From: a virus
DNA length: 34,113 nucleotides
Direction: 5' to 3' (one strand)
IMG/VR virus record: IMGVR_UViG_3300022602_000262
Coordinates: 1 to 34,113 of that record
The position numbers were made by a program, and so were the translations under genes. Below, piece after piece: positions 1 through 25,966 of the stretch. Every line of letters begins with the position of its first letter. The stretch's first letter is position 1. The notes beneath the pieces were generated by a model that had not been told where the DNA came from, searched no databases, and was given only the letters and a program-made list of their open reading frames with translations.

Positions 1-102
1 ATGTTATTTCTTTATTTTAGCTGTCCCTGTACTATTACCTCTTATTATAGAAAGAGAATATCTATATTTAAAGCTAATGATTACAGATATTTTTTATAAT
101 GA

Positions 103-720
103 CTAAGAACAAGTTTCAACGAGCTTGGCTTCGGCTTCTCTCCTGGCTATTAATCCATCTAAACCTTTACCTTCCCAGATTCTTTTCATTTTTCTAAGTT
201 CGTTAGCTATTCCTTTATAATCTCTTTTTGGTACAAGAACTCTTATATTACGCATTTCAAGTCGACTATCACCTACCATAGATGTACCTCTATTAAAAAC
301 TAACGAAACAATTGCTCCATAAGCATTGTCACATAAATCGTTTAACCCAGGGAACGCTCTTTCCGCTAACCTTGCAAACTTAGGCCAAGTTAAGTCATCA
401 AATAGTTTAACAGCTTGATCCCAGGTAATAGTAATATTAGCATTTTTAACAGCTTCAGACTTTACATAAGCTCTACCTGCTTCACCTGTCTTACCAGATG
501 CATTCTTAATAACATCAAGTTGATCGGCGTTTAAAAAGCTAAACATGTTAGCAAGTTCATTAGATGTATAATATCCGCAATCTATACCTATACCTAGAGT
601 TAACCCACTGTAGCCTCCGGGCCATGTAGGGTGTGTCAGGTATTTGTTGTAAAATTCTTTACCACCACCTACTTCATACTCTAAAATAAGGTCTAGTACT
701 GCTGTTGAGGGTTGTTTCAT
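103..720 (-). CDS. Endolysin (lysozyme-like, GH24/pesticin-type)
   Basis: A 205-aa muralytic enzyme candidate expected to cleave peptidoglycan at the end of infection. The N-terminus carries a pattern I know from phage lysozyme/pesticin-like domains: EYEVGGG (residues 14-20, E16 the likely catalytic acid), PTWPGGYSG (31-39) and TLGIGIDCGY (41-50, D47). These correspond in order to the Glu/Asp/Thr active-site region of T4 lysozyme. No signal peptide is visible, so it would need a holin. Its ATG overlaps the stop of the holin-like gene upstream (TAATG), indicating translational coupling. The stop TAG lies at 103-105. The hydrolase call is fairly safe; the exact family and bond cleaved are inferred. 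Confidence 0.75.
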   Translation of the reverse strand: MKQPSTAVLDLILEYEVGGGKEFYNKYLTHPTWPGGYSGLTLGIGIDCGYYTSNELANMFSFLNADQLDVIKNASGKTGEAGRAYVKSEAVKNANITITWDQAVKLFDDLTWPKFARLAERAFPGLNDLCDNAYGAIVSLVFNRGTSMVGDSRLEMRNIRVLVPKRDYKGIANELRKMKRIWEGKGLDGLIARREAEAKLVETCS

Positions 721-1178
721 TAGTTATTAACCTCCATAATATTATAATCAGGTTCTTTAGCGTTCTTTGTTAAATTCTCTGTTATGTTTTCATTATCGTT
801 TAAGTCACTATTATTAGTATCAGTCTCTGTATTCATCGATACACTTGATGAACTACTATATCTTAAATCGACAGCGGCTTGTACACCGAGATAGGTAGCA
901 ATAATAATACTAAACACTTCCATTACTTTAGTAAATATTGTTACATACCCACCTATAAAAACAGAGTCCCTAGGCATTAAAAACAATATACCTACACATA
1001 TAAAGAAAAAGAATATTAATGTAATAAATGATGTAAAGATTACAAAGAACTTCTTTGATGCTAAATGATTTTCGTTTTCTAACGATTGCCTCATCTTGTC
1101 TGAAGCACCAGGAGGAGCCTTTCCGTATTCCAGAAAGGCTACAGCTGATTTTAATATCGTATCAATAGCTCCGAACAT
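720..1178 (-). CDS. Two-TM membrane protein, holin candidate
   Basis: A 152-aa protein with a short polar N-terminus, two strongly hydrophobic segments (about residues 44-68 and 78-102) and a hydrophilic, Ser/Asn/Asp/Glu-rich C-terminal tail of about 45 residues. Size, topology and position (stop overlapping the lysozyme start as TAATG) fit a holin that permeabilises the inner membrane to release the endolysin. There is no family motif I recognise. The short membrane protein just upstream (1192-1338) is an alternative holin or an antiholin. The function rests on topology and neighbourhood only. Confidence 0.5.
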   Translation of the reverse strand: MFGAIDTILKSAVAFLEYGKAPPGASDKMRQSLENENHLASKKFFVIFTSFITLIFFFFICVGILFLMPRDSVFIGGYVTIFTKVMEVFSIIIATYLGVQAAVDLRYSSSSSVSMNTETDTNNSDLNDNENITENLTKNAKEPDYNIMEVNN

Positions 1179-1191
1179 TGCTTAATATTTA

Positions 1192-1338
1192 TTACAATAT
1201 TAAACCAAGAATCAAACCAAAAAGAAAACCAATAAGAAGGAGAGTAAACTTAGGATGAGCATTAAGCCAATTTCCTGACTTAATGACATCTGTCTTAACA
1301 GTATTTTCTACTGATGAAAGAGGAGGTAGACTATTCAT
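1192..1338 (-). CDS. Small single-TM protein in lysis cassette
   Basis: A 48-codon gene from ATG at 1338 to TAA at 1192-1194. The product begins MNSLPPLSSVENTVKT and ends with an 18-residue hydrophobic stretch (residues 31-48) containing repeated glycines. Its ATG overlaps the stop of the upstream spanin candidate (TAATG), and 13 nt separate its stop from the holin candidate. The same TAATG coupling occurs at the holin-lysozyme junction, which supports this as a real gene in a four-gene lysis operon. N-in/C-out single-span proteins of this size can be holins, antiholins or pinholins. I cannot choose among these. Confidence 0.6.
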   Translation of the reverse strand: MNSLPPLSSVENTVKTDVIKSGNWLNAHPKFTLLLIGFLFGLILGLIL

Positions 1339-1925
1339 TATAGTATAGCTCCAGTTCTAAAGAGAAGATAAAGAAGACCTGCGATAATAATCAACAATAC
1401 AACAATAATAACATTATCTCTAAAGATAGTAAATTGATCGGAGATATGTTCTTTTTGAAGTTTATTAATATCATTTATAATCTTATCCTTCATAGCTGCT
1501 TGTTTAGCAAGTTCAGTATCAACAATTGCTTTATCCTTAACGATATTAATATTATCCTTCTTAAGTTGATCAGCTACTGCTTTCACTTTTAGAAGATCTT
1601 GATAATCACTAGATCCAACCACTACAACTTTTTCATTCTTATACTGATCAGGAACGAGAACGACTCTAGTCTTATCAGCATTTTTTGTTCCCTTAACAAC
1701 TTGTCCGGCTTCATAAACAGACTGAATCTCTATACGCTTCTTAGGTATCTTAACCAACCTTGTTGTTTGATCTGAATAATAATAAGCTAGATCAATACGA
1801 CCTTTGTTAACTGAATCGTTAGTAGCGTAAACATTCTGACTTAATGCCTCGCTCTGTTTCTCGGTATAAACCGTGCAGGAACTTAAAAAGCACAATGATA
1901 GTGCTAGAAGGGTAATCTTTTTCAT
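1338..1925 (-). CDS. Lipoprotein with C-terminal TM, unimolecular spanin candidate
   Basis: A 195-aa protein with a lipoprotein signal peptide (MKK, hydrophobic core, lipobox LSSC with C17) and a C-terminal membrane span (about residues 172-190) ending in RTGAIL. The middle (about 100-165) is Lys/Asp/Glu/Gln-rich and probably helical. A lipid anchor at one end and an inner-membrane anchor at the other is the defining topology of u-spanins such as T1 gp11. These bridge the outer and inner membranes and fuse them after the cell wall is degraded. The gene lies upstream of the holin and endolysin candidates in the same operon. It implies a Gram-negative (diderm) host. The spanin role is inferred from topology. 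Confidence 0.6.
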   Translation of the reverse strand: MKKITLLALSLCFLSSCTVYTEKQSEALSQNVYATNDSVNKGRIDLAYYYSDQTTRLVKIPKKRIEIQSVYEAGQVVKGTKNADKTRVVLVPDQYKNEKVVVVGSSDYQDLLKVKAVADQLKKDNINIVKDKAIVDTELAKQAAMKDKIINDINKLQKEHISDQFTIFRDNVIIVVLLIIIAGLLYLLFRTGAIL

Positions 1926-1947
1926 ACCCTAATAATTAGACCTTTAA

Positions 1948-2580
1948 TTAGTGTTTTTCAACTGCTATTGCTGCAACGTAGCCGGAAAGAAGTATTGACT
2001 CTAATTTAAGCTCTTTATAAATGTTTTCTGGTAAAAATCCGTCATTCTTAATAAGATCTACCCCAAGTATACCGATAAACCCGCCTTCTAAACATTTAAT
2101 AGGAAATATGTAAACAGTATTAGCGCCACGATTTTCCCAGAAAGAACGGAGGGCATGATCTTGTTCAGTATGTATATCTGTTATAACACTCTCTTCTCCG
2201 TTATTAAGCTTTTGTAAAGAAGAGCTAAAAAATGATACAGGTAAGTTTTGCATTCTCATTATATCAGTAGCAACCCCGGGAGCTGAACTTTCAAACGTAA
2301 CAGACATCTTTTTCATTGACTTACCACCCGGATAGAAATTACCACCATTATGAAACTGAGCTACCCAAAGTCTATCTAAATCAAACTTTTCTTGAAGCTT
2401 ATTTAAAGACTTATTAATGAGCTCTTGAGTCTCAATAGTATTTTCAAAATCGGTTTTACGAGAATCGAGTTGTCTGTTTTTAGTACGAAGCTTGTGTTTG
2501 ACATAGGTTAATCCTACTGGACCTGCTATACCGGTTAAAAAAGCTGCCACTAATGGATAAAGATTAGTAAGATTGACCAT
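1948..2580 (-). CDS. Membrane-anchored GAF-like protein
   Basis: A 210-aa protein with an N-terminal membrane span (about residues 8-26), a short Lys/Arg-rich linker, a helical stretch (about 45-68) and a globular domain from about residue 70. The core motifs are LWVAQFHNGG, KMSVTFE, an intervening TDIHTEQDHALRSFW segment and GGFIGILGVD, which resemble GAF-type sensor domains found in phage and bacterial proteins. It is first in the lysis operon, 22 nt before the spanin candidate. A membrane-bound ligand sensor in this position could time lysis, but that is speculation. No catalytic residues were recognised. Confidence 0.45.
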   Translation of the reverse strand: MVNLTNLYPLVAAFLTGIAGPVGLTYVKHKLRTKNRQLDSRKTDFENTIETQELINKSLNKLQEKFDLDRLWVAQFHNGGNFYPGGKSMKKMSVTFESSAPGVATDIMRMQNLPVSFFSSSLQKLNNGEESVITDIHTEQDHALRSFWENRGANTVYIFPIKCLEGGFIGILGVDLIKNDGFLPENIYKELKLESILLSGYVAAIAVEKH

Positions 2581-4430: not shown

Positions 4431-5132
4431 ATGTCTAAAGCTGTAGTTGTTTATAGTAGTGGAATGGATTCAACCGTTCTTCTTCATCATGCTTTTAAAT
4501 TACATAATGAAGTTTATGTTTTAACGTTTGATTACGGTCAGCGTCATAAGAAAGAAGTAGAAATAGCAATGTCAATCTGTCATCCAAAGATTAAAGATCA
4601 TAAGCTTATTGATTTAAAGTTCTTTAGAGATCTTGTTCCCTCTTCTGCTCTTACCTCTGATAGTATTGATGTACCAAAGATGAAAGATATTATTGGTGAG
4701 GCCCAGCCGGTAACTTATTGTCCTAATAGGAATATGATGTTTCTTTCTATTGCTTGTTCCTATGCTGAAGCACATAATTGTTCTGATGTTTATTACGGAG
4801 CTGTAGCTGTTGATAATTTAAGCGGATACTGGGACTGCACTGAACAGTTCGTAGAAAGTATGAATAACTGTTTAGGCTTAAATAGAATGAACAGAATTCA
4901 GATTCAAGCTCCCTTACTCTATAAGACTAAGAAAGAAATTATTGAAATGGGTATAGAATTAGGAGTAGAATTTGAACATACCTGGACTTGTTATGAAGGA
5001 AAGAAAGAGAGTTGTGGCACATGTCCATCCTGTGCCGCTAGAATTCGAGGGTTTGCTGATGCTGGTTATATTGATCCTTTGCCTTACACTCGAGAAATTA
5101 ATTGGTTGAAATACAATTGTAAACCTCTGTAA
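4431..5132 (+). CDS. queC: 7-cyano-7-deazaguanine (preQ0) synthase QueC
   Basis: A 233-aa enzyme that converts 7-carboxy-7-deazaguanine to preQ0 using ATP and ammonia. The PP-loop SGMDST is at residues 10-15 and is followed by a typical TFDYGQRHKKE segment. The C-terminal zinc site CYEGKKESCGTCPSC supplies C187, C195, C198 and C201, the same spacing as in bacterial QueC. The length is normal for the family. It sits alone between two fibre genes rather than with other deazaguanine genes. Phages use preQ0 to make 7-deazaguanine bases in DNA that resist restriction. The class II amidotransferase at 12404 may be its partner. No DpdA transglycosylase, FolE, QueD or QueE is seen in this window. Confidence 0.93.
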   Translation: MSKAVVVYSSGMDSTVLLHHAFKLHNEVYVLTFDYGQRHKKEVEIAMSICHPKIKDHKLIDLKFFRDLVPSSALTSDSIDVPKMKDIIGEAQPVTYCPNRNMMFLSIACSYAEAHNCSDVYYGAVAVDNLSGYWDCTEQFVESMNNCLGLNRMNRIQIQAPLLYKTKKEIIEMGIELGVEFEHTWTCYEGKKESCGTCPSCAARIRGFADAGYIDPLPYTREINWLKYNCKPL

Positions 5133-5138
5133 ATAAAG

Positions 5139-5184
5139 TACGGGGATAGATTGGAAAGATTGTAAAGAGTTGTAATACGGGGAT
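5139..5184 (+). repeat. Direct repeat TACGGGGAT x2 between queC and beta-helix gene
   Basis: The 9-bp sequence TACGGGGAT occurs at 5139-5147 and 5176-5184, 37 bp apart, in the 78-bp gap upstream of the gene at 5211. The GC-rich core stands out from the surrounding AT-rich sequence, so it may bind a regulator. Function unknown. Confidence 0.4.
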
Positions 5185-5197
5185 GTATATGCTTAAA

Positions 5198-5205
5198 TAT
5201 ATTTG
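5198..5205 (+). promoter_or_regulatory. Possible promoter element TATATTTG
   Basis: TATATTTG (5198-5205) lies 5 nt before the ATG at 5211 and fits the TAnnTTTG -7 element known from Bacteroidota. It overlaps a TTAAATA box at 5194. The same octamer precedes the DUF366 gene (13729-13736). In AT-rich sequence this may be chance. Confidence 0.25.
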
Positions 5206-5210
5206 CATAT

Positions 5211-6797
5211 ATGTCCTTAACGTATTTAAACTCTTCGATGATATTAGAGCCAGCCGCGCTGGCTACTCTAAGTGCAGTTAATGTAACTGTTTACGGAGAA
5301 TTATCAGCATTACATCAAAACTATCAACCGATTGCCGATACTTATTACGTTGCTACATTTGGTTCTGATGACGCCTTAGGAGCTCAGGATACAGCAAATG
5401 GAAGAGGTAGAAACGAGCAACTTCCTTATGCTACTATAAAATACGCTGCTTCTAAGATTGCTGCAGCTAGGGCAGCTGGAGACACTAACCCTTATACAAT
5501 TTTTGTTCGTTCAGGTTCTTACACTGAACAGAACCCTATCTACTTACCTCCTAATACTTCCGTTATTGGAGACAATTTAAGAAGAGTTAGTATTGTTCCA
5601 GCTAATCCTACATTAGATATTTTCTGGGTAAGTAGTGCTTGTTATCTTTGGGGAATGACTTTCCGTGGTCATCAATCCCCTGCTGCTGCCGTCGCTTTTC
5701 CTCTCTGGTATAGTACAGCTACAGCAACAAATAGTGGATTAAACCCAACAGCTTTTGCAAAAGCTTATAATAATCCCGGTACACTTGTTACTCCTCCTTC
5801 GGCTAGACCGCTTATAGCTGTTAGTCCTTATACCCAGGGTTGTACTTCATATGCTACTTCTACTAACCCTATTAATAATGGCGGTGACGCTGGATGCGGT
5901 ATGCGTATTGACGGAAGCTTAGTTGATGGAACCATAAGAAGCATGGTTATTGATTCCTTTACTCAAGTTAATCAAGGTGGTAGAGGTATTCATTTACTCA
6001 ATCATGGTTACGCTCAATTTGTTAGTACCTTCACTGTAGCCTGTACTGACGGTATAGTTTGTGAATCTGGTGCTACTTGTTCCATATCTACATCAAACTG
6101 TACGTTCGGTTTATCCGGATTAGTAGCTAGAGGTAAATCATCATCTCCTATTCTTAGTGGAGTATTTGCCGGGTTTACTACTGGATCAAATACATTAGCT
6201 ATAAGTGGGGTTACCCCATTAGCCATAGCTCTCTCAGGTAATGATAAACAATATGTAGCTCAAGTTCCTTATCCAGGTACTTGTTTTACTATTAATGGTT
6301 TAGCAATAAGTGCTATTAACCCTGTTTCTCTTACCGTTCCTACAGGTTATAATGCTAATCAGCAAAACTTATTCTTTGTTAACTCTCCGTTAAGTGCCGC
6401 TAACGATACAAATAAGACTTGGTATATTCCTTTAGATAATAATATAGGTTTCAATTTAAGTACTTACTTCGGTCAACCAGTTTATTTCTATGCTCGTTCT
6501 GCTATAGCTACCGGCTCCCACACCTTTGAATATATGGGATGTGGTACAAATATCTTATCCGCTATTCCGGCTCAAGGTGGTATTGTTAATAATGCTAACG
6601 AAGTTGTTTATGATGGTTTACAGGATTATTACGGTAATGCTCCCGGTATTGTTTATTATACTAGCTCTAATGAAAAGGGTAACTTTAACGTTGGTCCTAA
6701 CTTCCAGATTGTTCAAAGTACAGGTACTATTCAAGGAGATACATTCAAACGTTCAATATTAACACTCGTAACCCCATTAAATATTGCTTTAGAATAA
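5211..6797 (+). CDS. Beta-helix (pectin-lyase-like) tail fibre/tailspike protein
   Basis: A 528-aa virion adhesin. After a short N-terminus, the segment YYVATFGSDDALGAQDTANG leads into a motif typical of parallel beta-helix proteins: LPYATIKYAASKIAAARAAG, TIFVRSGSYTEQNPIYLPPN and VIGDNLRRVSI (about residues 45-125). Ser/Thr/Gly-rich coils follow, with several Cys residues around 275-297. This arrangement is common in T4-like marine phage fibres. No catalytic triad for polysaccharide cleavage is recognised, so it may only bind. The stop TAA is part of the late-promoter-like box for the next gene. Confidence 0.7.
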   Translation: MSLTYLNSSMILEPAALATLSAVNVTVYGELSALHQNYQPIADTYYVATFGSDDALGAQDTANGRGRNEQLPYATIKYAASKIAAARAAGDTNPYTIFVRSGSYTEQNPIYLPPNTSVIGDNLRRVSIVPANPTLDIFWVSSACYLWGMTFRGHQSPAAAVAFPLWYSTATATNSGLNPTAFAKAYNNPGTLVTPPSARPLIAVSPYTQGCTSYATSTNPINNGGDAGCGMRIDGSLVDGTIRSMVIDSFTQVNQGGRGIHLLNHGYAQFVSTFTVACTDGIVCESGATCSISTSNCTFGLSGLVARGKSSSPILSGVFAGFTTGSNTLAISGVTPLAIALSGNDKQYVAQVPYPGTCFTINGLAISAINPVSLTVPTGYNANQQNLFFVNSPLSAANDTNKTWYIPLDNNIGFNLSTYFGQPVYFYARSAIATGSHTFEYMGCGTNILSAIPAQGGIVNNANEVVYDGLQDYYGNAPGIVYYTSSNEKGNFNVGPNFQIVQSTGTIQGDTFKRSILTLVTPLNIALE

Positions 6798-6800
6798 ATA
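6794..6800 (+). promoter_or_regulatory. Late-promoter-like box ATAAATA
   Basis: ATAAATA is formed by the stop codon of the previous gene plus ATA. It lies 11 nt before the ATG at 6812 and is followed by TATAAAA. The gene at 9178 has an almost identical leader. Confidence 0.4.
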
Positions 6801-6811
6801 TATAAAACATT

Positions 6812-7156
6812 ATGGCCGTCGCACTAAATTATTTCAATAGAGTTACTTCTTCAGTAACAACTACCCCTACACCAGTATATACAGTACCGTTCCAAAAAGC
6901 CGGTATTATCATTACTGCTTTAGCTTCTAACTTAACTTCTCAGCCTCAAACTATTACAGCTTCTTTATCAACAGCTGGTACACCAGGTTCTAGTTACGTT
7001 ATTGTTCAGAGTTTTCAGTTACCTCCTAACGATACTACTAATATTGTTATTAACAAGTTAGTATTAAATCAGTATGATAGCTTTATTGTATCAGCTGGTG
7101 CTAACAGTGTTGCTAATATAACTCTTTCTGTTTTAGAAACAGTAAATACACCATAA
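6812..7156 (+). CDS. Small virion-associated beta-sandwich protein
   Basis: A 114-aa protein made of alternating hydrophobic and Ser/Thr/Asn residues with no helix-forming stretches, suggesting one small all-beta domain. There is no signal peptide and no Cys. It lies 14 nt after a beta-helix fibre gene and 6 nt before a beta-roll fibre gene, with no transcription break, so it is most likely a fibre accessory or decoration protein. I do not recognise a family. Confidence 0.5.
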   Translation: MAVALNYFNRVTSSVTTTPTPVYTVPFQKAGIIITALASNLTSQPQTITASLSTAGTPGSSYVIVQSFQLPPNDTTNIVINKLVLNQYDSFIVSAGANSVANITLSVLETVNTP

Positions 7157-7162
7157 TCTTTC

Positions 7163-9163
7163 ATGCAGACCTATCATCAAACAATAGGTAACGTTATTCA
7201 GTTAAAAGCTTTAACGGCTACCGATCTTCAGACTAATGCTTATAACAATAATTTTATAGCATTAAATTCTGTTGAACCGAGCTTAGGTCTTCCTACTGGT
7301 ACTTCTAACGCTAATCCTAATAACAAATACTTTTTTCCTTTATTAGGAACTGAAACTTCTTATCTTTCTTCCAGACGTACATCAGGTAACGATACTTTAT
7401 ATATTCAAGGCTCCTCTGTTTATATTGGAGGTAATATTGTTATAGGGGATAAGAGTTCGACAAATAATAATAATTCAAGTATCTTAGGCGGTGACTGTAA
7501 TGTAATTAATGCCAATTATTCTACTATAGCTGGCGGTCTTAGTAGCCGTATTACTGGCTCCGGTCCTGGTAATTCAATAGGTGGCGGTTATCAAAATACA
7601 GCATCGGGGTTTTATGTTACTGTGGCTGGTGGTCATAATAATAAAGCTCTTTCCCCTGGTGCTTCTATTGGTGGTGGTAATACAAACTACATCGGTCTTA
7701 CAGGTTATGATTCTGTTATTGCCGGTGGTATGTACAACACTATTAACGGCACAAACGGTTGTAGGTCTGCTATTGTTGGAGGTTACGGTAACACTATATC
7801 GTCTTTTTATTCTTTTGTCGGAGGCGGTTGTATTAACACAGTTTCTAGTTATTACTCCGCTATTGTTGGAGGTTATTATAACACAGTCTCTAACGGATAT
7901 GGTTTTATTGGTGGGGGTTTAGCAAATTGTGTTACAGGTATAGCTAGTGCTATAGTAGGAGGTAGTAGTAATTGTGCTCAAGGTACAAATACTGCTGCTT
8001 TCGTTGGCGGTGGTACAAATAACTGTGCTATAGGAGACGGGTCTGTTGTAGGAGGTGGTTCTTGTAATTGTGCTACAGAATTTTTCTCTGTTGTAGCTGG
8101 AGGTACTGGTAATAAAGCTTCTGGAAATTATTCTACAGTTGCTGGTGGTTGCAATAATACAGCTTCAAATCTTTATTCTTTTGTTGGTGGAGGTTTTAAT
8201 AACACAATTAATGACACAGGGACATCAGTTATTGTAGGAGGGCAAAATAACATTCATTGCTGTTCTTCCGGTTCGTCTTTTATAGGCGCCGGCTTTAATA
8301 ATTGTTCAACTCAATCATACACTGTTATTGGAGGAGGTAATAGCAATATAACATCCGGAGCGTATTCTGTTATTGGAGGAGGTAGTGGCAATATAACATC
8401 CGGAGTGGTTTCTGTTATTGGAGGAGGTAGTGGCAATATAACATCCGGAGTGTATTCTACTGTTTCTGGAGGATATTGTAACACAGCTTCTAGTTTATAT
8501 GATTTTGTAGGAGGAGGTTGCGGTAATTGTGCTAGTGGAGGTCAATCAACAGTTTCAGGCGGTTATTGTAATAAGGCTACAGGTAATGAATCCACTGTAG
8601 CAGGTGGTTTTTGGAATAATGCTACAGGAAGATTCTCAACAGTGGCTGGAGGTATCTGTAATATAGCTTCAGGAAAAAGTTCGTTTGTAGGTAGTGGAGG
8701 TACCGATTTCCCTCTTCAAACAGGTAATACAGCTTCAGGCAATTACTCTAGTGTTGTCGGAGGTATTTGTAATACTGCATCAGGTCTTTACTCTTTTGTA
8801 GCAGGTGGTTCTGCAAATGATACAAAAGGCTTTACTAATACATTTATCTTAGGTACTAACCTTTCAGCATCTCGAGCTAACTTTACATACGTTAATAATC
8901 TTAGTGCATCTGGTACTATATACGGTAATTTTGTAATACCGAATTCTCTTACTAAGGCTGTTACATCTATAGGTAACGGAGTTGCTACAGCGTTTAACTT
9001 TGTTCATAACTTAAATTCTTTAGATGTCATAACTCAAGTCTATAGCAATACCGGTGGTATAGTCGTAACACCAACTATTGCTAACATTAGTACATCAACA
9101 GTAAGTCTTTCCTTTAGCACACCTCCAGCCTTAACAGCTTATAGGGTTGTAGTTGTTGGATAA
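7163..9163 (+). CDS. Beta-roll (YadA-head-like) tail fibre
   Basis: A 666-aa fibre. About residues 105-570 are a long run of 14-16-residue repeats of the type GGGxxNxAxGxxSxVxGG, the pattern of the left-handed beta-roll of trimeric adhesin heads. Many repeats carry Cys at or beside the N position (GGGSCNCA, GGYCNTA). After the roll comes the collar FILGTN...FTYVNNLSASGTIY, then a beta-rich tip (about 600-666) without Cys. The N-terminal 100 residues are a distinct domain with TDLQTNAYNNNFIALNSVEPSLGLP. It probably forms a trimeric receptor-binding fibre. Confidence 0.75.
   Translation: MQTYHQTIGNVIQLKALTATDLQTNAYNNNFIALNSVEPSLGLPTGTSNANPNNKYFFPLLGTETSYLSSRRTSGNDTLYIQGSSVYIGGNIVIGDKSSTNNNNSSILGGDCNVINANYSTIAGGLSSRITGSGPGNSIGGGYQNTASGFYVTVAGGHNNKALSPGASIGGGNTNYIGLTGYDSVIAGGMYNTINGTNGCRSAIVGGYGNTISSFYSFVGGGCINTVSSYYSAIVGGYYNTVSNGYGFIGGGLANCVTGIASAIVGGSSNCAQGTNTAAFVGGGTNNCAIGDGSVVGGGSCNCATEFFSVVAGGTGNKASGNYSTVAGGCNNTASNLYSFVGGGFNNTINDTGTSVIVGGQNNIHCCSSGSSFIGAGFNNCSTQSYTVIGGGNSNITSGAYSVIGGGSGNITSGVVSVIGGGSGNITSGVYSTVSGGYCNTASSLYDFVGGGCGNCASGGQSTVSGGYCNKATGNESTVAGGFWNNATGRFSTVAGGICNIASGKSSFVGSGGTDFPLQTGNTASGNYSSVVGGICNTASGLYSFVAGGSANDTKGFTNTFILGTNLSASRANFTYVNNLSASGTIYGNFVIPNSLTKAVTSIGNGVATAFNFVHNLNSLDVITQVYSNTGGIVVTPTIANISTSTVSLSFSTPPALTAYRVVVVG
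8324..8458 (+). repeat. 45-bp tandem repeat x3 in beta-roll
   Basis: Three 45-bp units (starting 8324, 8369, 8414) share gttattggaggaggta and caatataacatccggag with very few differences. Each encodes one 15-residue roll turn (VIGGGSGNITSGV). The near identity contrasts with the diverged neighbouring turns and indicates recent in-frame duplication. Confidence 0.8.
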
Positions 9164-12403: not shown

Positions 12404-13042
12404 ATGTGCGGAATTGCCGGATCTAGTTCATTTGATAAAGCTTTTGATCTCTATGAAAAGAATCTAAAGCGCGGGTACTTTTCTTCAGGATTTCTTTCAT
12501 ATGATGAAAAAGGTAATATCTTAATAAAGAAACAAAAAGAGAAGTTTAATAAAGAAGATTTGTTTAAAGATATAACCTATAACCTTATAGGGCCAGTACA
12601 ATATCTATTTCATTCTAGAGCCCCTACTAATAGTAAGGAACCTTTTTCTGAAGCGACTTGTCATCCTTTTGACTTTGATAACTATTATGTATCTCATAAT
12701 GGTATTATAACAAACTTTAAAAGCTTTCCTGAGCATCCAGAGTTTACTGTTGATAGTTCTATTATACCTTATCACTTAACAAAGAATAACGGTGATATAA
12801 AAAAGACATTTGAAGCTTATGAAGGTCTACTTACTTGTTGGATCTATAATCATCTAGATGGAACAACGAGAATAGTTAAAGCAGGTAGTTCTTTGTATAT
12901 GGATGATGATAGTTTTTCATCTGTACCGTTTAAAGGAGCTCAATGTATTGAAGAAGATGGAATAGTATTTTGGTATTATCAAGATAAAATAATGCAAATT
13001 ACTAACTCTACATTTAAGTACGATAACCCTTACGAACTATGA
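12404..13042 (+). CDS. Class II glutamine amidotransferase (Ntn hydrolase), stand-alone
   Basis: A 212-aa glutaminase domain that releases ammonia from glutamine. It starts MCGIAG, so after Met removal C2 is the N-terminal nucleophile. Other family motifs are FHSRAPT (69-75), HPF (87-89) and SHNGIITN (97-104, with the N99/G100 oxyanion pair). There is no fused synthetase domain; asparagine synthetase, GlmS and PurF are all longer. In phages and archaea this domain is found fused to QueC (Gat-QueC), and this phage also carries an unfused QueC at 4431. A split amidinotransferase making a G+-type base is plausible. Its last 4 nt overlap the glycosyltransferase start (ATGA), so the two are coupled. 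Confidence 0.85.
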   Translation: MCGIAGSSSFDKAFDLYEKNLKRGYFSSGFLSYDEKGNILIKKQKEKFNKEDLFKDITYNLIGPVQYLFHSRAPTNSKEPFSEATCHPFDFDNYYVSHNGIITNFKSFPEHPEFTVDSSIIPYHLTKNNGDIKKTFEAYEGLLTCWIYNHLDGTTRIVKAGSSLYMDDDSFSSVPFKGAQCIEEDGIVFWYYQDKIMQITNSTFKYDNPYEL

Positions 13043-13737: not shown

Positions 13738-14325
13738 ATGATTATTAACCGTAACGAACTAAAGACAATAACAGGATGTGACTATTATGATGGAGCTGTA
13801 CTTCATCAGCGATTTGCTTATAAATTCTTTAAGAAGAATGTTCGTGCTGTAGGTAATATTGTAGCATTTGAAGCTCCAATGGAAGTTACTACTAATCTTA
13901 TTGACTTAGAAGATGCTATCAATAATGATTATATTTACTCAGTAAGGGCTATTAACTTTCTTATTGAGATTCCTAATATTGATCTCTTTGCCGGTGTTTG
14001 TTTTCAGCGTTTGTATAACGCTCAGTTAGGTTCTCTCCTTTGTACGAAGTATCTTCAGAAGGAAGGTTATGTAGATGGAGATGATATTATGGTAAAGGAC
14101 GGAGAAGAGTTTAAGAAGGCCTCTGTATCTATTGCTACTAATGTAAATGGAGCTGTTCTTATTCACGTTGGTATTAATATCAATGCTGGAGATAAGGCTC
14201 CTTCTTTTGCTTACTCTACCCACCTTACTGACGAAGCAGCTAACGCTTTTATGCTTGATGGTATTCAGATGTTCCAGGCAATGGTCCAAGACATCTTCAC
14301 GGCTACGAGCAAGACGATTGCGTGA
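13738..14325 (+). CDS. DUF366 family protein
   Basis: A 195-aa protein matching the DUF366 pattern as I recall it: YYDGAVLHQRFAY (16-28), VAFEAPMEV (42-50), LIDLEDA (54-60), a central Ile/Phe-rich segment, YVDGDDIMV (111-119), ASVSIAT (128-134) and LIHVGINI (141-148). The conserved Asp/Glu/His residues suggest an enzyme. The biochemical function of the family is not settled as far as I know. My recollection is that DUF366 members occur with 7-deazaguanine genes in some phages; this is unverified. It lies 24 nt after the glycosyltransferase and shares an upstream element with queC and the amidotransferase. Its stop overlaps the next gene's GTG (GTGA). Confidence 0.65.
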   Translation: MIINRNELKTITGCDYYDGAVLHQRFAYKFFKKNVRAVGNIVAFEAPMEVTTNLIDLEDAINNDYIYSVRAINFLIEIPNIDLFAGVCFQRLYNAQLGSLLCTKYLQKEGYVDGDDIMVKDGEEFKKASVSIATNVNGAVLIHVGININAGDKAPSFAYSTHLTDEAANAFMLDGIQMFQAMVQDIFTATSKTIA

Positions 14326-14675
14326 CAATATTCGATTATCTAGGAGATATACTAGTTAAGAAGAAAGGGGATTTACCTCTAGAAGAATACGTTCCCTTTC
14401 TTATTAATAGGTGGCTAGCGTTCAGTTCTAATGAAGCAGCTAACGCTATTAATCAAACAGTAAACTCTCTAGGTAATATAGATAAGAACATACACTATAA
14501 ACTTCTTATATCAGCATTTCCTAAATTCGGTCGAATGCCTAGAATAGACTACATTAAAAAAGTAAAACCGGAAAAAGAAGAGAAGGATAATAAAGTAGCT
14601 TTACTATCTTCTAATATGGAGCTATCACAAAGAGAAATAAAACAATTGCTTGAATTAAAAGAACTAACGACTTAA
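14322..14675 (+). CDS. Putative clamp-loader small subunit (gp62-like)
   Basis: A 117-aa protein with a GTG start overlapping the upstream TGA stop (GTGA). The stretch VPFLINRWLAFSSNEAANAI followed by HYKLLISAFPKFGRMPRIDY has the layout of the T4 gp62 core: an N-x-x-L-S-like helix, a small helix, then HFNYLMAAVPRGKR. Marine T4-like phages have short homologues. The C-terminal third is Lys/Glu-rich and probably a helix. With gp44 it would load the sliding clamp for replication; no gp44 or gp45 is in this window. The assignment is tentative. Confidence 0.45.
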   Translation: MTIFDYLGDILVKKKGDLPLEEYVPFLINRWLAFSSNEAANAINQTVNSLGNIDKNIHYKLLISAFPKFGRMPRIDYIKKVKPEKEEKDNKVALLSSNMELSQREIKQLLELKELTT

Positions 14676-14685
14676 ATTAAATTAT

Positions 14686-15123
14686 ATGTTTAGACAACTA
14701 CCAAATGAATCAAACGGTGTAGCAGCAGAGGATTATAAAGATCTTCCACTTCCTGAAGACTATGAAATTACTTCCCTTCTTGGAGACGTAATTGCTGTAG
14801 AGTATATTGACGTAGCCGAAGACGGAAAGAGTCTTATCCGTAATGGAATTATTCTTCCTGGTCAGGTTATTGATAATAGAGCTTGGCGTATAGCGCAGGT
14901 TAAGATTACTGGTCCTGATGTTAAGCAGGTCAAGGTCGGAGATGTAGTTATCTTCCCAGGTGATCGAGGACTTCAAGGTCTTCAGCGCAATGGTAAGATG
15001 ATTATTTTCTTAAACGAACAAAGAATTTTCGGTATTTGTGAGCATATTAAGAAGCCAACAATTGAGCAGATTTCTCATCAGTTGCCACCTATTAAAAGGA
15101 AGGTGCTTAAGAAGAAACAGTGA
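14686..15123 (+). CDS. GroES-like co-chaperonin (gp31-like)
   Basis: A 145-aa protein with the GroES/Cpn10 layout. SLLGDVIAVEY (30-40) is the first strand. IRNGIILPG (51-59) is the end of the mobile loop that contacts GroEL. VKVGDVVIFPGDRG (82-95) matches the conserved V-G-D-x-V-x-F element, and MIIFLNEQRIFGICE (105-119) matches the closing strands. It is longer than bacterial GroES (about 97 aa) because of extra residues at both ends, similar to phage gp31-type proteins. It probably replaces host GroES for capsid protein folding. The stop overlaps the next gene's GTG start. Confidence 0.8.
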   Translation: MFRQLPNESNGVAAEDYKDLPLPEDYEITSLLGDVIAVEYIDVAEDGKSLIRNGIILPGQVIDNRAWRIAQVKITGPDVKQVKVGDVVIFPGDRGLQGLQRNGKMIIFLNEQRIFGICEHIKKPTIEQISHQLPPIKRKVLKKKQ

Positions 15124-19767: not shown

Positions 19768-20213
19768 TGGTGGAGGCGAGGGGAGTCGAACCCCTGTGTT
19801 CATAATGTTTTGTTTGTATCTCTACATGCTTAGAACGACTTCGTACTTTCGTTGACTCCAGGTAACGAGGTGTCGCCAACCTATCTATGTTTAAAGTCCT
19901 ACCTGTACGAGTGATTAAGGACCTCGTACTACCCCTTGCACTTATTTTGTTAGAATCACAAGTTCTTCTAAACCTACTAATATTTCCAAAAGATTTAATA
20001 GGATCCTCTTCTGGTGTTTTAGGCAGCCATGAGGCAAAGCTCGTCTTCGTATCCGAAGAAGGACTCTGCAGCATTTGTCACGAATGACTTGACTGACTCA
20101 ACTGCATTAGCGATTGCTTTTGCGTTTAGTTTTTAATCCGTTTTTAAGTAGCCACAGATCAACTACTGCATGCAATACAAATTCCGACTATGAGTCGAAA
20201 CCAGTACGCCCCC
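19768..20213 (-). ncRNA. ssrA: tmRNA (ssrA), one-piece, phage-encoded
   Basis: The 5' end GGGGGCG (20213-20207) pairs with the 3' CGCCTCC, followed by encoded ACCA (19771-19768). The 5' end continues TACTGGTTTCGACT, the tmRNA signature. The 3' T-arm is AGGGG-TTCGACT-CCCCT. The long P2 helix is visible: TTTGTAT plus TGCATGC (20181-20168) pair with GCATGTA and ATACAAA (19829-19813) across a GAG bulge. Helix ends and both terminal domains are therefore complete. At about 446 nt it is longer than typical tmRNAs (about 350-400). It would rescue stalled ribosomes and tag proteins, using host SmpB since none is seen here. The only apparent promoter is ATAAATA at 20218-20224. Confidence 0.9.
20019..20123 (-). 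other. tmRNA tag-peptide reading frame (proposed 34 aa)
   Basis: After the A-rich stretch AAAAACTAAAC, a GCA codon at 20123 is in frame with TAA at 20021-20019. The tag would start AKAIANAVESVK and end GYEDELCLMAA. A GCN resume codon and a terminal Ala-Ala are usual for tmRNA tags and needed by ClpXP-type proteases, but 34 residues is long (common tags are about 10-15). The exact resume codon cannot be fixed from sequence: later in-frame GCA/GCT codons exist (20117, 20105, 20069). Confidence 0.6.
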
Positions 20214-20690: not shown

Positions 20691-21755
20691 ATGCGCAATT
20701 ATACGTACAATTGGGAAGTGTCTACGATGTTCACTATGTTCATCGCTGCTTTAGATGATATAATTGTAAAAAGGTATAATAAAGATAAGGTTGCCCAAGA
20801 TCAGATTCAATGTAGATTTGTTTATGCTCCAAAGCAAAGAGTGCTTTTAGACATTTTAGATAAAGCTCAAAATATTCAGCTTCCTGTTATAGCGGTATCA
20901 AATGGCGGTATAACTAGAGATGTTAATAGAGTCTTTAATAAGATAGTCGGATCTCATCTTAATAATACTGATCCTCGTTATTCTCCCAATCTCCTTCAAC
21001 CTATACCAATTGATTTAACTATCAGCATGTCTATCCTGGCAAGATATCAAGAAGACTACGATCAGATTATAACAAACATTTTACCCTATTTTGATCCTTA
21101 TATTGAAATATCCTGGCGTATACCTGGTGTTACTGACTATGAAATTAGAAGTAAAGTAATTTGGTCTGGTAATGTAGCTACAACTTATCCGACAGATCTT
21201 AACGCTAATCAAACAGCTAGAGTTCAAGGAGATACGTCATTTACCTTTCAGGGATGGTTATTTAAAGCAATGCCAGAAGCTGATGGTAATATCTTTAATA
21301 TTGTAGTAGATTATTCTACTCTTCCTGGATTAACAACCCAGTACTCGTTAGCTACTCTTCTTAGCTCTTATCCAAATACAACTGATCGTTTTGTTCTTTC
21401 AGCTCAACCTCAACCTGATGCTATTGTTCCTTATACATCATTATTATCTGCTTCTAATGCTTATAACCTATACGGGCAATCATTTCTTGAAGTAAGTAAT
21501 GTTTACGTTTCTGGAACACCCTTTACAGGTACAGATACATTCTATAATCCGTTCTCAGGCTACTCTACTCTATCTGCTAGTTATCCTGGGTTTACTGCTG
21601 TACAGCTACTTACCTCTCAATACACTACCAATAATGAAAATTATATTCAGTTCATTATGCCTCCTCCACTTTACCCCGGTAACATAGACGTTATTGTACA
21701 GAATCCTGCAGGATATGGTAAATTAACTCAATATGCTAGTTTAACTTCTTTCTAA
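20691..21755 (+). CDS. Tail sheath stabiliser/completion protein (gp15-like)
   Basis: A 354-aa protein. The segment VSTMFTMFIAALDDIIVKRY followed by CRFVYAPKQRVLLDILDK matches T4 gp15 (YATLMGDLFSNIQIKR...VPITYASKEHFMMKL). The signature SMSILARYQEDYDQIITNIL and PYFDPYIE matches gp15 LSIFTRYEDDMFQIVEQILPYFQP. A later SFTFQGWLFKAMPEADG matches LTFEVNGWMYPPV. These are ordered and collinear. T4 gp15 is 272 aa; here a C-terminal region of about 130 residues (from about 225) rich in Ser/Thr/Pro/Tyr is extra. In T4 gp15 caps the tail tube and sheath and contacts the neck. Confidence 0.85.
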   Translation: MRNYTYNWEVSTMFTMFIAALDDIIVKRYNKDKVAQDQIQCRFVYAPKQRVLLDILDKAQNIQLPVIAVSNGGITRDVNRVFNKIVGSHLNNTDPRYSPNLLQPIPIDLTISMSILARYQEDYDQIITNILPYFDPYIEISWRIPGVTDYEIRSKVIWSGNVATTYPTDLNANQTARVQGDTSFTFQGWLFKAMPEADGNIFNIVVDYSTLPGLTTQYSLATLLSSYPNTTDRFVLSAQPQPDAIVPYTSLLSASNAYNLYGQSFLEVSNVYVSGTPFTGTDTFYNPFSGYSTLSASYPGFTAVQLLTSQYTTNNENYIQFIMPPPLYPGNIDVIVQNPAGYGKLTQYASLTSF

Positions 21756-24058: not shown

Positions 24059-25966
24059 ATGATTAGTACATCTACGTCATATAATAATGCTGTTCCAGGT
24101 GATTCTCAAGGACCTAGAAACGATCAAGCGTTTCCGTCTACGACGTTATTAGGTGCTTTCGTATCTAGACTTCCTTATGCTTATCAGATTCTTGATAGCA
24201 TGATGCAAAGGAATCCTAAGTTCCCTCTCTTTAAGGGAGCTGCTCCAAAGAGAGAGGAAATGATTCAAGATGAATCTGTATTCTTACATGAACCTGCTTT
24301 TCAACAAGCCCCTGCTGGTACCCCTAGTAGCTTACTAATTAATAAAGATTATCAGGCGTTCATTTACGCAAATGTTGATAAAGATAAAGCACGTCGTTTA
24401 ACTGATTATCGTCGAATGGCAGCTTATGCAGAATTAGCTGACTGTTTAGATGAAATTGCTGACGAATGTATTGTTAAGGATGAAAATGATATTATTGTTA
24501 GCTTTAGCTTAAGAGGTGATTACACAAAAGAAGTTAAAGATATTGTTGAAAAAGAATTCAAGAAGTTTGTTAATATATTTGACTTAGAAGATTCTGGTTG
24601 GGAGTATTTCCGTCAGTTCTTAATTGATGGTGAATTATACTTTGAAAATATTATTGATGATGAACGTCCTCATTTAGGTATTATCGGCATGATATCAATG
24701 CCGGCTGAGTTAATCAACCCTGTATATCAGAACGTACAAAATGAAATGGTTAAAGGATTCTTAATTCGTAAACCTGTACTAGGTCCAGCAACATCAGTTA
24801 ATCAAAAGGATCAAGAAGAATTATTCTTCATGCAAAAGGCTCAGGTCACTTATGTTCACTCCGGTATCTGGAATGAATATAAAGCCATTCGTTTACCTTA
24901 TATTGAGAACGCAAAGCGTGCCTATCGTCAGTTATCTCTTATTGAAGACTCAATTGTTATCTATCGTTTAGTTAGAGCTCCTGAACGTCTCAAGTTTACT
25001 ATCTATACTGGTAACATGCCAGCTCCAAAAGCTGAAGCTTATCTCCGTCGATTAATGCAGCAGTACTGGTCCAAGAAGAATTGGGATACTGGTGCTGGTA
25101 ATAGCCCGAAGGGTGGTGTAACAAACGTTTATGATCCCCAAAGCATGTTAGATGCTTATTGGTTTACTAAGGACGCTCAGGGTAATGGCTCCGATGTTTC
25201 TTCTCTTCCTTCTGGAGCCAACTTAGGTGAAATGAAAGACTTGGAATACTTCTTAAAGAAGCTTTACAACTCCTTAAAGATTCCAACTACCCGCTTCTTA
25301 GGAGATTCTCAGCCCTTTAAGGATGGTACTGAAATTACTCGAGACGAATTACGTTTTGCTCGTTTCATTATTCGTATCCAGCGTCAGTTTGCAACCTCTA
25401 TTAGAGATACCTTTATTGCTCACTTAAAGTTAAAAGGTTATTGGAAGCAGTACAAGTTAAAAGAGCGAGCTATTCACGCTGAATTTAACGTACCATCAAC
25501 ATTCATGGCAATGAGAGATCAACAGTTGTTGGATCTCAAGATGGATAACTTTAATAAAGCTACTCAAAATTCTTCTATTGCTCCTTCTTATGCTCAGAAG
25601 TATCAGTTAGGCTTATCTGATGAGCTCATGAAAGAGAATAGAGATTGGTTGAAAAAAGATGCTGCTCTTGAATGGGAAATAGGTCAGATTAAACAAATGG
25701 GTCCAAACTTTAGAGAGATACTTCAGGCTCAAATGGGAGGAGCTGAAGGTGCTGCAGCAGCCGGGTTAGGCGGAGGAGGCGGCGGAGGTGGAAGCTTACC
25801 AGGTATACCTCCAGCTGGTGGAGGTGGAGAAGAAATTCCTGAATTTGGTGGAACTGCACCAGTAGGAGCAGAAGGAGCACCAGGTGGGGAAACACCTCCA
25901 GGTCAAGGACCTCCAATAACTAATGCAGGTACGGCTCAGGGCGGTAATGAAGCAGCTCCTGCCTAA
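24059..25966 (+). CDS. Portal vertex protein (gp20-like)
   Basis: A 635-aa dodecameric portal through which DNA is packaged and ejected. Recognisable T4 gp20 features in order: YRRMAAYAELADCLDEIADE, FRQFLIDGELYFENIIDDE, LPYIENAKRAYRQLSLIEDS, IVIYRLVRAPERLKFTIYTG, NMPAPKAEAYLRRLMQQYWS, LGEMKDLEYFLKKLYNSLKI, PTTRFLGD and DELRFARFIIRIQRQFATSI. The last 80 residues are Gly/Pro/Ala-rich (GLGGGGGGGG and similar), a low-complexity tail not found in T4 gp20 (524 aa). Codon use (more CGT/CTC/TTC, GC-richer) looks more like that of a highly expressed gene than the fibre genes. Confidence 0.93.
   Translation: MISTSTSYNNAVPGDSQGPRNDQAFPSTTLLGAFVSRLPYAYQILDSMMQRNPKFPLFKGAAPKREEMIQDESVFLHEPAFQQAPAGTPSSLLINKDYQAFIYANVDKDKARRLTDYRRMAAYAELADCLDEIADECIVKDENDIIVSFSLRGDYTKEVKDIVEKEFKKFVNIFDLEDSGWEYFRQFLIDGELYFENIIDDERPHLGIIGMISMPAELINPVYQNVQNEMVKGFLIRKPVLGPATSVNQKDQEELFFMQKAQVTYVHSGIWNEYKAIRLPYIENAKRAYRQLSLIEDSIVIYRLVRAPERLKFTIYTGNMPAPKAEAYLRRLMQQYWSKKNWDTGAGNSPKGGVTNVYDPQSMLDAYWFTKDAQGNGSDVSSLPSGANLGEMKDLEYFLKKLYNSLKIPTTRFLGDSQPFKDGTEITRDELRFARFIIRIQRQFATSIRDTFIAHLKLKGYWKQYKLKERAIHAEFNVPSTFMAMRDQQLLDLKMDNFNKATQNSSIAPSYAQKYQLGLSDELMKENRDWLKKDAALEWEIGQIKQMGPNFREILQAQMGGAEGAAAAGLGGGGGGGGSLPGIPPAGGGGEEIPEFGGTAPVGAEGAPGGETPPGQGPPITNAGTAQGGNEAAPA

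Follow-up and report, generated by a model that had tools for sequence, protein, structure and literature searches.

The window, by which we mean the whole stretch of 34,113 nucleotides analysed here (IMG/VR virus record IMGVR_UViG_3300022602_000262), is a 34-kb contig of a T4-like phage, a virus of bacteria, and is placed in the T4 superfamily because of its gp20 portal gene. On its minus strand, at 20213-19768, lies a complete one-piece tmRNA (ssrA) gene of 446 nt. The presence of the portal gene and of a gp15-like protein gene bears out the proposal of a first-pass annotation, made from the letters alone, that this tmRNA is phage-encoded. The features of the locus are:

19768..20213, minus strand: one-piece tmRNA (ssrA), 446 nt (RF00023 full length; covariation over 73 pairs)
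20207..20213, minus strand: acceptor stem, 5' strand GGGGGCG, including G3 of G3-U70 (pairs with 19772-19778)
20168..20193, minus strand: P2, 5' strands in three stretches, partner 19800-19829 (helices 2-4)
20135..20167, minus strand: pseudoknot PK1, AGUAG/CUACU and GAUCUGU/ACGGAUU (helices 5-6)
20124..20128, minus strand: frame-setting UAAAC just 5' of the resume codon, U at -5 and A at -4
20022..20123, minus strand: tag reading frame, 34 codons, AKAIANAVESVKSFVTNAAESFFGYEDELCLMAA (translation, pN/pS)
20055..20123, minus strand: codons 1-23, predicted amphipathic helix (AlphaFold2, helical moment)
20022..20036, minus strand: codons 30-34, CLMAA, predicted C-terminal degron (relatives have YALAA, CLAAA, YLLAA and LAIAA)
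20019..20021, minus strand: tag stop codon TAA (same place in all complete relatives)
19973..20014, minus strand: pseudoknot PK2 (helices 7-8)
19952..19969, minus strand: short hairpin separating PK2 from PK3 (helix 9)
19896..19929, minus strand: pseudoknot PK3 (helices 10-11)
19779..19795, minus strand: T-arm AGGGG-UUCGACU-CCCCU (RF00023 alignment, covariation)
19768..19778, minus strand: acceptor stem, 3' strand CGCCUCC, and encoded ACCA (sequence, RF00023 alignment)
20691..21755, plus strand: gp15-like tail sheath stabilizer, synteny anchor with the related contigs L003-L005 (protein match)
24059..25966, plus strand: T4-like portal gp20 (PF07230, E 5e-97)

Genes resembling those for QueC, a glutamine amidotransferase, a clamp loader and GroES are found elsewhere in the window, at 4431-5132, 12404-13042 and 14322-15123.

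In a cmscan search, positions 1-374 of the 374 in RF00023 align to 20213-19768 on the minus strand with 103.6 bits (E 1.2e-39; gathering score, 47 bits), and the match is not truncated. The first-pass annotation had placed the tmRNA at exactly these coordinates; P2, the T-arm, the acceptor stem and the encoded CCA that it described are all present, and the covariance model that it proposed as a check aligns both terminal domains. ARAGORN, the other program proposed, missed the gene and reported only tRNA-Glu and tRNA-Cys nearby. Among 13 homologous tmRNAs, 93.3% of 945 pair cells are kept paired and compensatory two-sided change occurs in 35 of 73 base pairs; shuffles average 15.1 two-sided pairs, with 0 of 500 reaching 35, and control slides are 36-50% paired. 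Since pairing and two-sided changes exceed both shuffles and slides, the fold of the window tmRNA is not a product of chance. P2 is 91-99% paired with two-sided changes present, the T-stem is 91% paired in the alignment of relatives, and two-sided changes are found in all three pseudoknots of the pair model: the two helices of PK1 are 100% and 93% paired, with such change in 5 pairs, and in PK3 helix 10 shows it in 7/7 pairs, helix 11 being weaker (77% paired). A G-U pair occupies the third position of the acceptor stem in 13/13 relatives, and in the window this G3-U70 pair is the known alanine identity element. A scan for sigma-70 promoters and terminators around the tmRNA gave no signal above chance.

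The tag frame is opened by GCA at 20123 and closed by TAA at 20021-20019, and its product, AKAIANAVESVKSFVTNAAESFFGYEDELCLMAA, has 34 residues and ends in LMAA. The resume region of the window reads AAAAACUAAAC, with 11 nt between the end of PK1 and the resume GCA. U-5 and A-4 are kept in 28/28 distinct relatives, and the resume codon is GCA in 27 of these and GCT in 1. In the E. coli tmRNA, the frame is set by U85/A86 within the region AAAAAAUAGUC (PMC2481249), and the spacing from PK1 to the resume codon is the same 11 nt. The pN/pS ratio is 0.23-0.28 in the tag frame and about 1.0-1.3 in the other two, and codons 1-17 alone give a significant 0.28 (6/200 shuffles). Judged by these comparisons the 34-codon frame, which the first-pass annotation had read in the same way and which translation and selection confirm, is real and selected at the protein level. 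The further idea that the frame yields a free phage-made peptide is unsupported, because no start codon opens the frame and the resume signal of the tmRNA stands before it.

Three contigs recovered with the adjacent gp15-like protein as query carry the same tmRNA at the corresponding locus, where it is complete (L003), interrupted (L004) or cut by the contig end (L005), and pattern scans of IMG/VR yielded 28 distinct complete tmRNA sequences on about 45 contigs of up to 226 kb. A tag of 32-35 codons is present in 28/28. Long tags are a property of the window tmRNA family, because a tag-blind PK1 pattern also catches tmRNAs on other viral contigs whose tags are mostly of 8-12 residues (GVNQLALAA, ADTSVLALAA). 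Published tags span 8-35 residues and usually have 10 (PMC3968760, PMC8012679), so that a tag of 34 residues lies at the top of the known range; it is unusually long, as had been claimed, in the sense of being rare, and not in the sense of exceeding that range.

The long tags fall into three types that are unrelated in sequence beyond the first alanine and the alanine-rich end. Type A reads AKAITNAVKSVKSFVTNxAESLFxxEDELCLMAA, with variants ending in YALAA or CLAAA, type B reads AEDNTDALLAEAEYIFNNAAEFLGGVEEEYLLAA and type C AKTKVSAILAKVKKAANTITEFCLCDEMAPLAIAA. The first residue is alanine (AK or AE) at the same codon in all three, and an (L/M/I/A)AA terminus is found in all variants but one. 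Taken separately, each type shows purifying selection at the protein level: in frame, pN/pS is 0.28 and 0.36 for type A, 0.29 for type B and 0.22 for type C, with at most 1/200 shuffles as low; out of frame it is mostly about 0.8-2.4, the lowest value being 0.57. AlphaFold2 models the tag as one helix (pLDDT 88/85 over residues 1-20) with a low-confidence tail. The helical hydrophobic moment of the first 23 residues exceeds that of shuffles at P about 0.001 in most type A tags and at P 0.01-0.03 for type C and most of type B, and is not significant in two type B variants (L105, P 0.07; L121, P 0.19). An amphipathic N-terminal helix is thus predicted for types A and C and for the greater part of B, although it could be no more than a consequence of the tag's richness in alanine. 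Most type A tags carry a net charge between 0 and +2, and the helices of type B are acidic (L005, net -6).

The tag and the RNA that surrounds it differ in their patterns of relatedness. Mean identity in the 5' part of the RNA is 76.3% between types A and C and 76.1% within type A, whereas tag identity between types falls to 46-49%; pairs of different type exist whose 5' parts are 90-94% identical and whose tags are 43-46% identical, such as L074 (type C) and L053 (type A), with 94.4% in the 5' part and 43.5% in the tag. In a tree of the tag-free RNA, a single type B clade is rejected (p-AU 1e-11) and a single type C clade is borderline (p 0.05; 0.024 on the 5' part alone). At the same locus, the window and L005 are 79% identical in the upstream flank, 87% in the tmRNA 5' part and 51% in the tag, and in the portal tree L005 nests with the window and L004 in a tight clade; L003, with a portal 93% identical to that of the window over 437 residues, was left out of the portal-tree reading. 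As read from these alignments and trees, tag type is independent of the history of the surrounding RNA or phage. Either the tags have been swapped or the RNA around them recombines, and in both cases the comparisons indicate separate histories for tag and scaffold.

No SmpB gene was found on 29 searched records, most of them fragments, so that host SmpB would have to serve the window tmRNA, and no phage-encoded SspB was found in 21 records. ClpP-like genes were seen in 4 of 5 contigs with a YALAA-ended tag (L092, L172, L173, L174) and in no others. A pairing of tag and protease was considered and set aside: none of the contigs concerned matches the T4-like portal, and the association is therefore confounded by phage lineage. 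The ClpP-like gene may mark another lineage, for example as a head protease. A ClpC-like ATPase with a Clp_N domain, a UVR motif and two AAA domains is encoded at 1-2319 (plus strand) of L168, a phage contig of 199 kb on which a type B tmRNA is present as well.

We consider it likely that the locus encodes a functional phage tmRNA that works with host SmpB and carries a two-part tag, helix and degron, that is exchanged as a cassette. Comparison of sequences shows the gene, the fold, the frame, selection on the tag, its conserved length and its exchange. By analogy with known tmRNA biology, host AlaRS would charge the RNA with alanine and host SmpB would carry it into ribosomes that have stalled, in the course of infection, on broken mRNAs of phage or host. 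The ribosome would switch to the tmRNA frame at GCA 20123, extending its product by Ala plus 34 residues, laid out as an amphipathic helix of ~22 residues, an acidic linker and the hydrophobic putative degron CLMAA. The latter would be recognized by a ClpXP-type AAA+ protease of the host, leading to degradation. For the helix, the most likely role, and a speculative one, would be binding of a partner, be it an adaptor, a protease domain, a chaperone or the membrane, that governs the handling of rescued products. Phages exchange cassettes A, B and C while keeping tag length and type of end. The earlier suggestion that tagging alters what becomes of rescued peptides is plausible, since length and a predicted terminal degron, and mostly the helix, are conserved across three unrelated tags.

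Other accounts of the long frame were weighed against this one. If translation resumed at an inner Ala or Val codon, the real tag would have about 16-17 residues; inner GCN codons are indeed present, and for one relative (L078) ARAGORN calls a late resume codon and a 17-residue tag, VAESLFSQEEDYCLMAA. This late start is contradicted by the comparative evidence of codon selection and a conserved upstream signal: UA at -5 and -4 together with the 11-nt spacing from PK1 fits only GCA 20123, codons 1-17 are conserved as protein, and all three tag types start with alanine at that exact codon. The comparative data do not favour a short standard tag, and we regard such a start as extremely improbable. 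The long frame might instead be a by-product of RNA conservation, with only the last residues acting as a tag, as would fit the overall conservation of tmRNA and the finding that the E. coli tag beyond the degron is often dispensable (PMC2481249). Changes nevertheless fall at third codon positions, the other frames give pN/pS mostly near or above 1 and column shuffles about 0.85, and three unrelated nucleotide sequences agree in encoded length and, for the most part, in helix pattern, which makes this account improbable.

A different role for the tag deserves somewhat more weight, although we think it unlikely: the tag could shield or relocate its products, for example by membrane docking of the helix, so that phage proteins survive rescue. 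The strong amphipathic helix, the neutral to weakly positive charge of most type A tags and the many members that end in LMAA rather than LAA speak for it, but close relatives end in YALAA, YLLAA and LALAA, which are classic ClpX-type ends, and the acidic helices of type B are ill-suited to membrane binding. Finally, the gene might produce a decoy RNA that titrates SmpB or blocks the host tmRNA, in the manner of the TLD-only form from mycobacteriophage DS6A. TLD-only phage tmRNAs are known (PMC4131195, PMC11915505) and the searched records lack a phage SmpB; a decoy, however, would need neither pseudoknots nor a frame, and both are kept under selection, so that we hold this to be very improbable. 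Returning to the functional tmRNA with an exchanged two-part tag, we offer one extension only tentatively: the tag may be an exchangeable effector cassette in a large set of uncultured phages, in which recombination swaps whole A, B or C tags within a rescue RNA that is otherwise conserved, the helix recruits different host or phage partners, and each phage thereby rewrites the destination of rescued proteins during infection.

The window tmRNA resembles the one-piece E. coli tmRNA (RF00023) in its tRNA-like domain, G3-U70, PK1, UA at -5/-4, a GCA resume codon 11 nt past PK1 and an alanine-ended hydrophobic tag terminus. Unlike the E. coli gene it lies on a phage, with no SmpB on the record, and its tag has 34 rather than about 10 residues, with an added helix-forming first part. 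Mycoplasma and Mesoplasma tags, of 27 or so residues with a final alanine, are read by Lon in hosts without ClpXP. The window tag is like these in a length well above 10 and an alanine end, but its family comprises three exchangeable types in phages. The isolates Bacillus phage G, Mycobacterium phage Nanosmite and Caulobacter phage phiCbK likewise carry a tmRNA in the phage genome, often near tRNA genes; the window tmRNA has no sequence match to theirs, and it differs from that of phage G, with a 13-residue tag (read by eye as AKLNITNNELQVA), and from that of phiCbK, which is permuted and has a 20-residue tag. The permuted phiCbK gene, reported by ARAGORN at 741-1180 (plus strand) of that phage's record (L096), is absent from the record's annotation.

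Searches of sequenced phages gave no near match to the window tmRNA by DNA, only short T-arm or tRNA stretches, and none to tags A, B or C by tblastn; neither the tag nor a PK1 pattern was found in the searched GTDB species genomes, and a 25-residue tag ascribed to mycobacteriophage Bxz1 has no match in the collection. Phage tmRNAs on record number 79 in a database of 97,179 (PMC11915505), and among open papers we found none that describes a phage tmRNA family whose tags keep 32-35 residues or come in exchangeable types. The window tmRNA is thus a member of a known RNA family, and what is new is the set of about 45 uncultured phage contigs with long tags of three types. As a rule, little importance is attached to the part of the tag that precedes the final few residues. 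In this family it is long, evolves under protein-level selection and is exchanged whole, suggesting that phages steer protein fate via ribosome rescue. Cassettes A, B and C offer ready reagents for experiments on what a long tag contributes. Phage tmRNAs are probably undercounted, because ARAGORN misses or shortens such genes.

Several relatives are interrupted or deviate in structure. In L004, the tmRNA at about 6450-7530 (minus strand) has its PK1 loop split by about 600 bp that contain an Endonuclease VII-type HNH reading frame at 6819-7394 (minus strand; PF02945, E 2.5e-24), and the insertion has no Rfam intron match. The tmRNA introns known so far sit only in the T-loop (PMC11915505). A type C tmRNA at 5071-6340 (plus strand) of L115 has two insertions: an Endonuclease VII-like reading frame at the same PK1-loop site, 72% identical in nucleotides to that of L004 and overlapping the PK1 3' strand with its end, and a group I intron in the T-loop at 6089-6293 (RF00028, 83 bits). 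The T-loops of L004, L052 and L082 deviate from UUCGANU (UGCAACU, GGCAGUU and UAUCGUA, respectively), while their T-stems still largely pair via compensatory changes; such loops might weaken function. In L054 and L056, other sequence takes the place of the encoded CCA directly after the acceptor stem.
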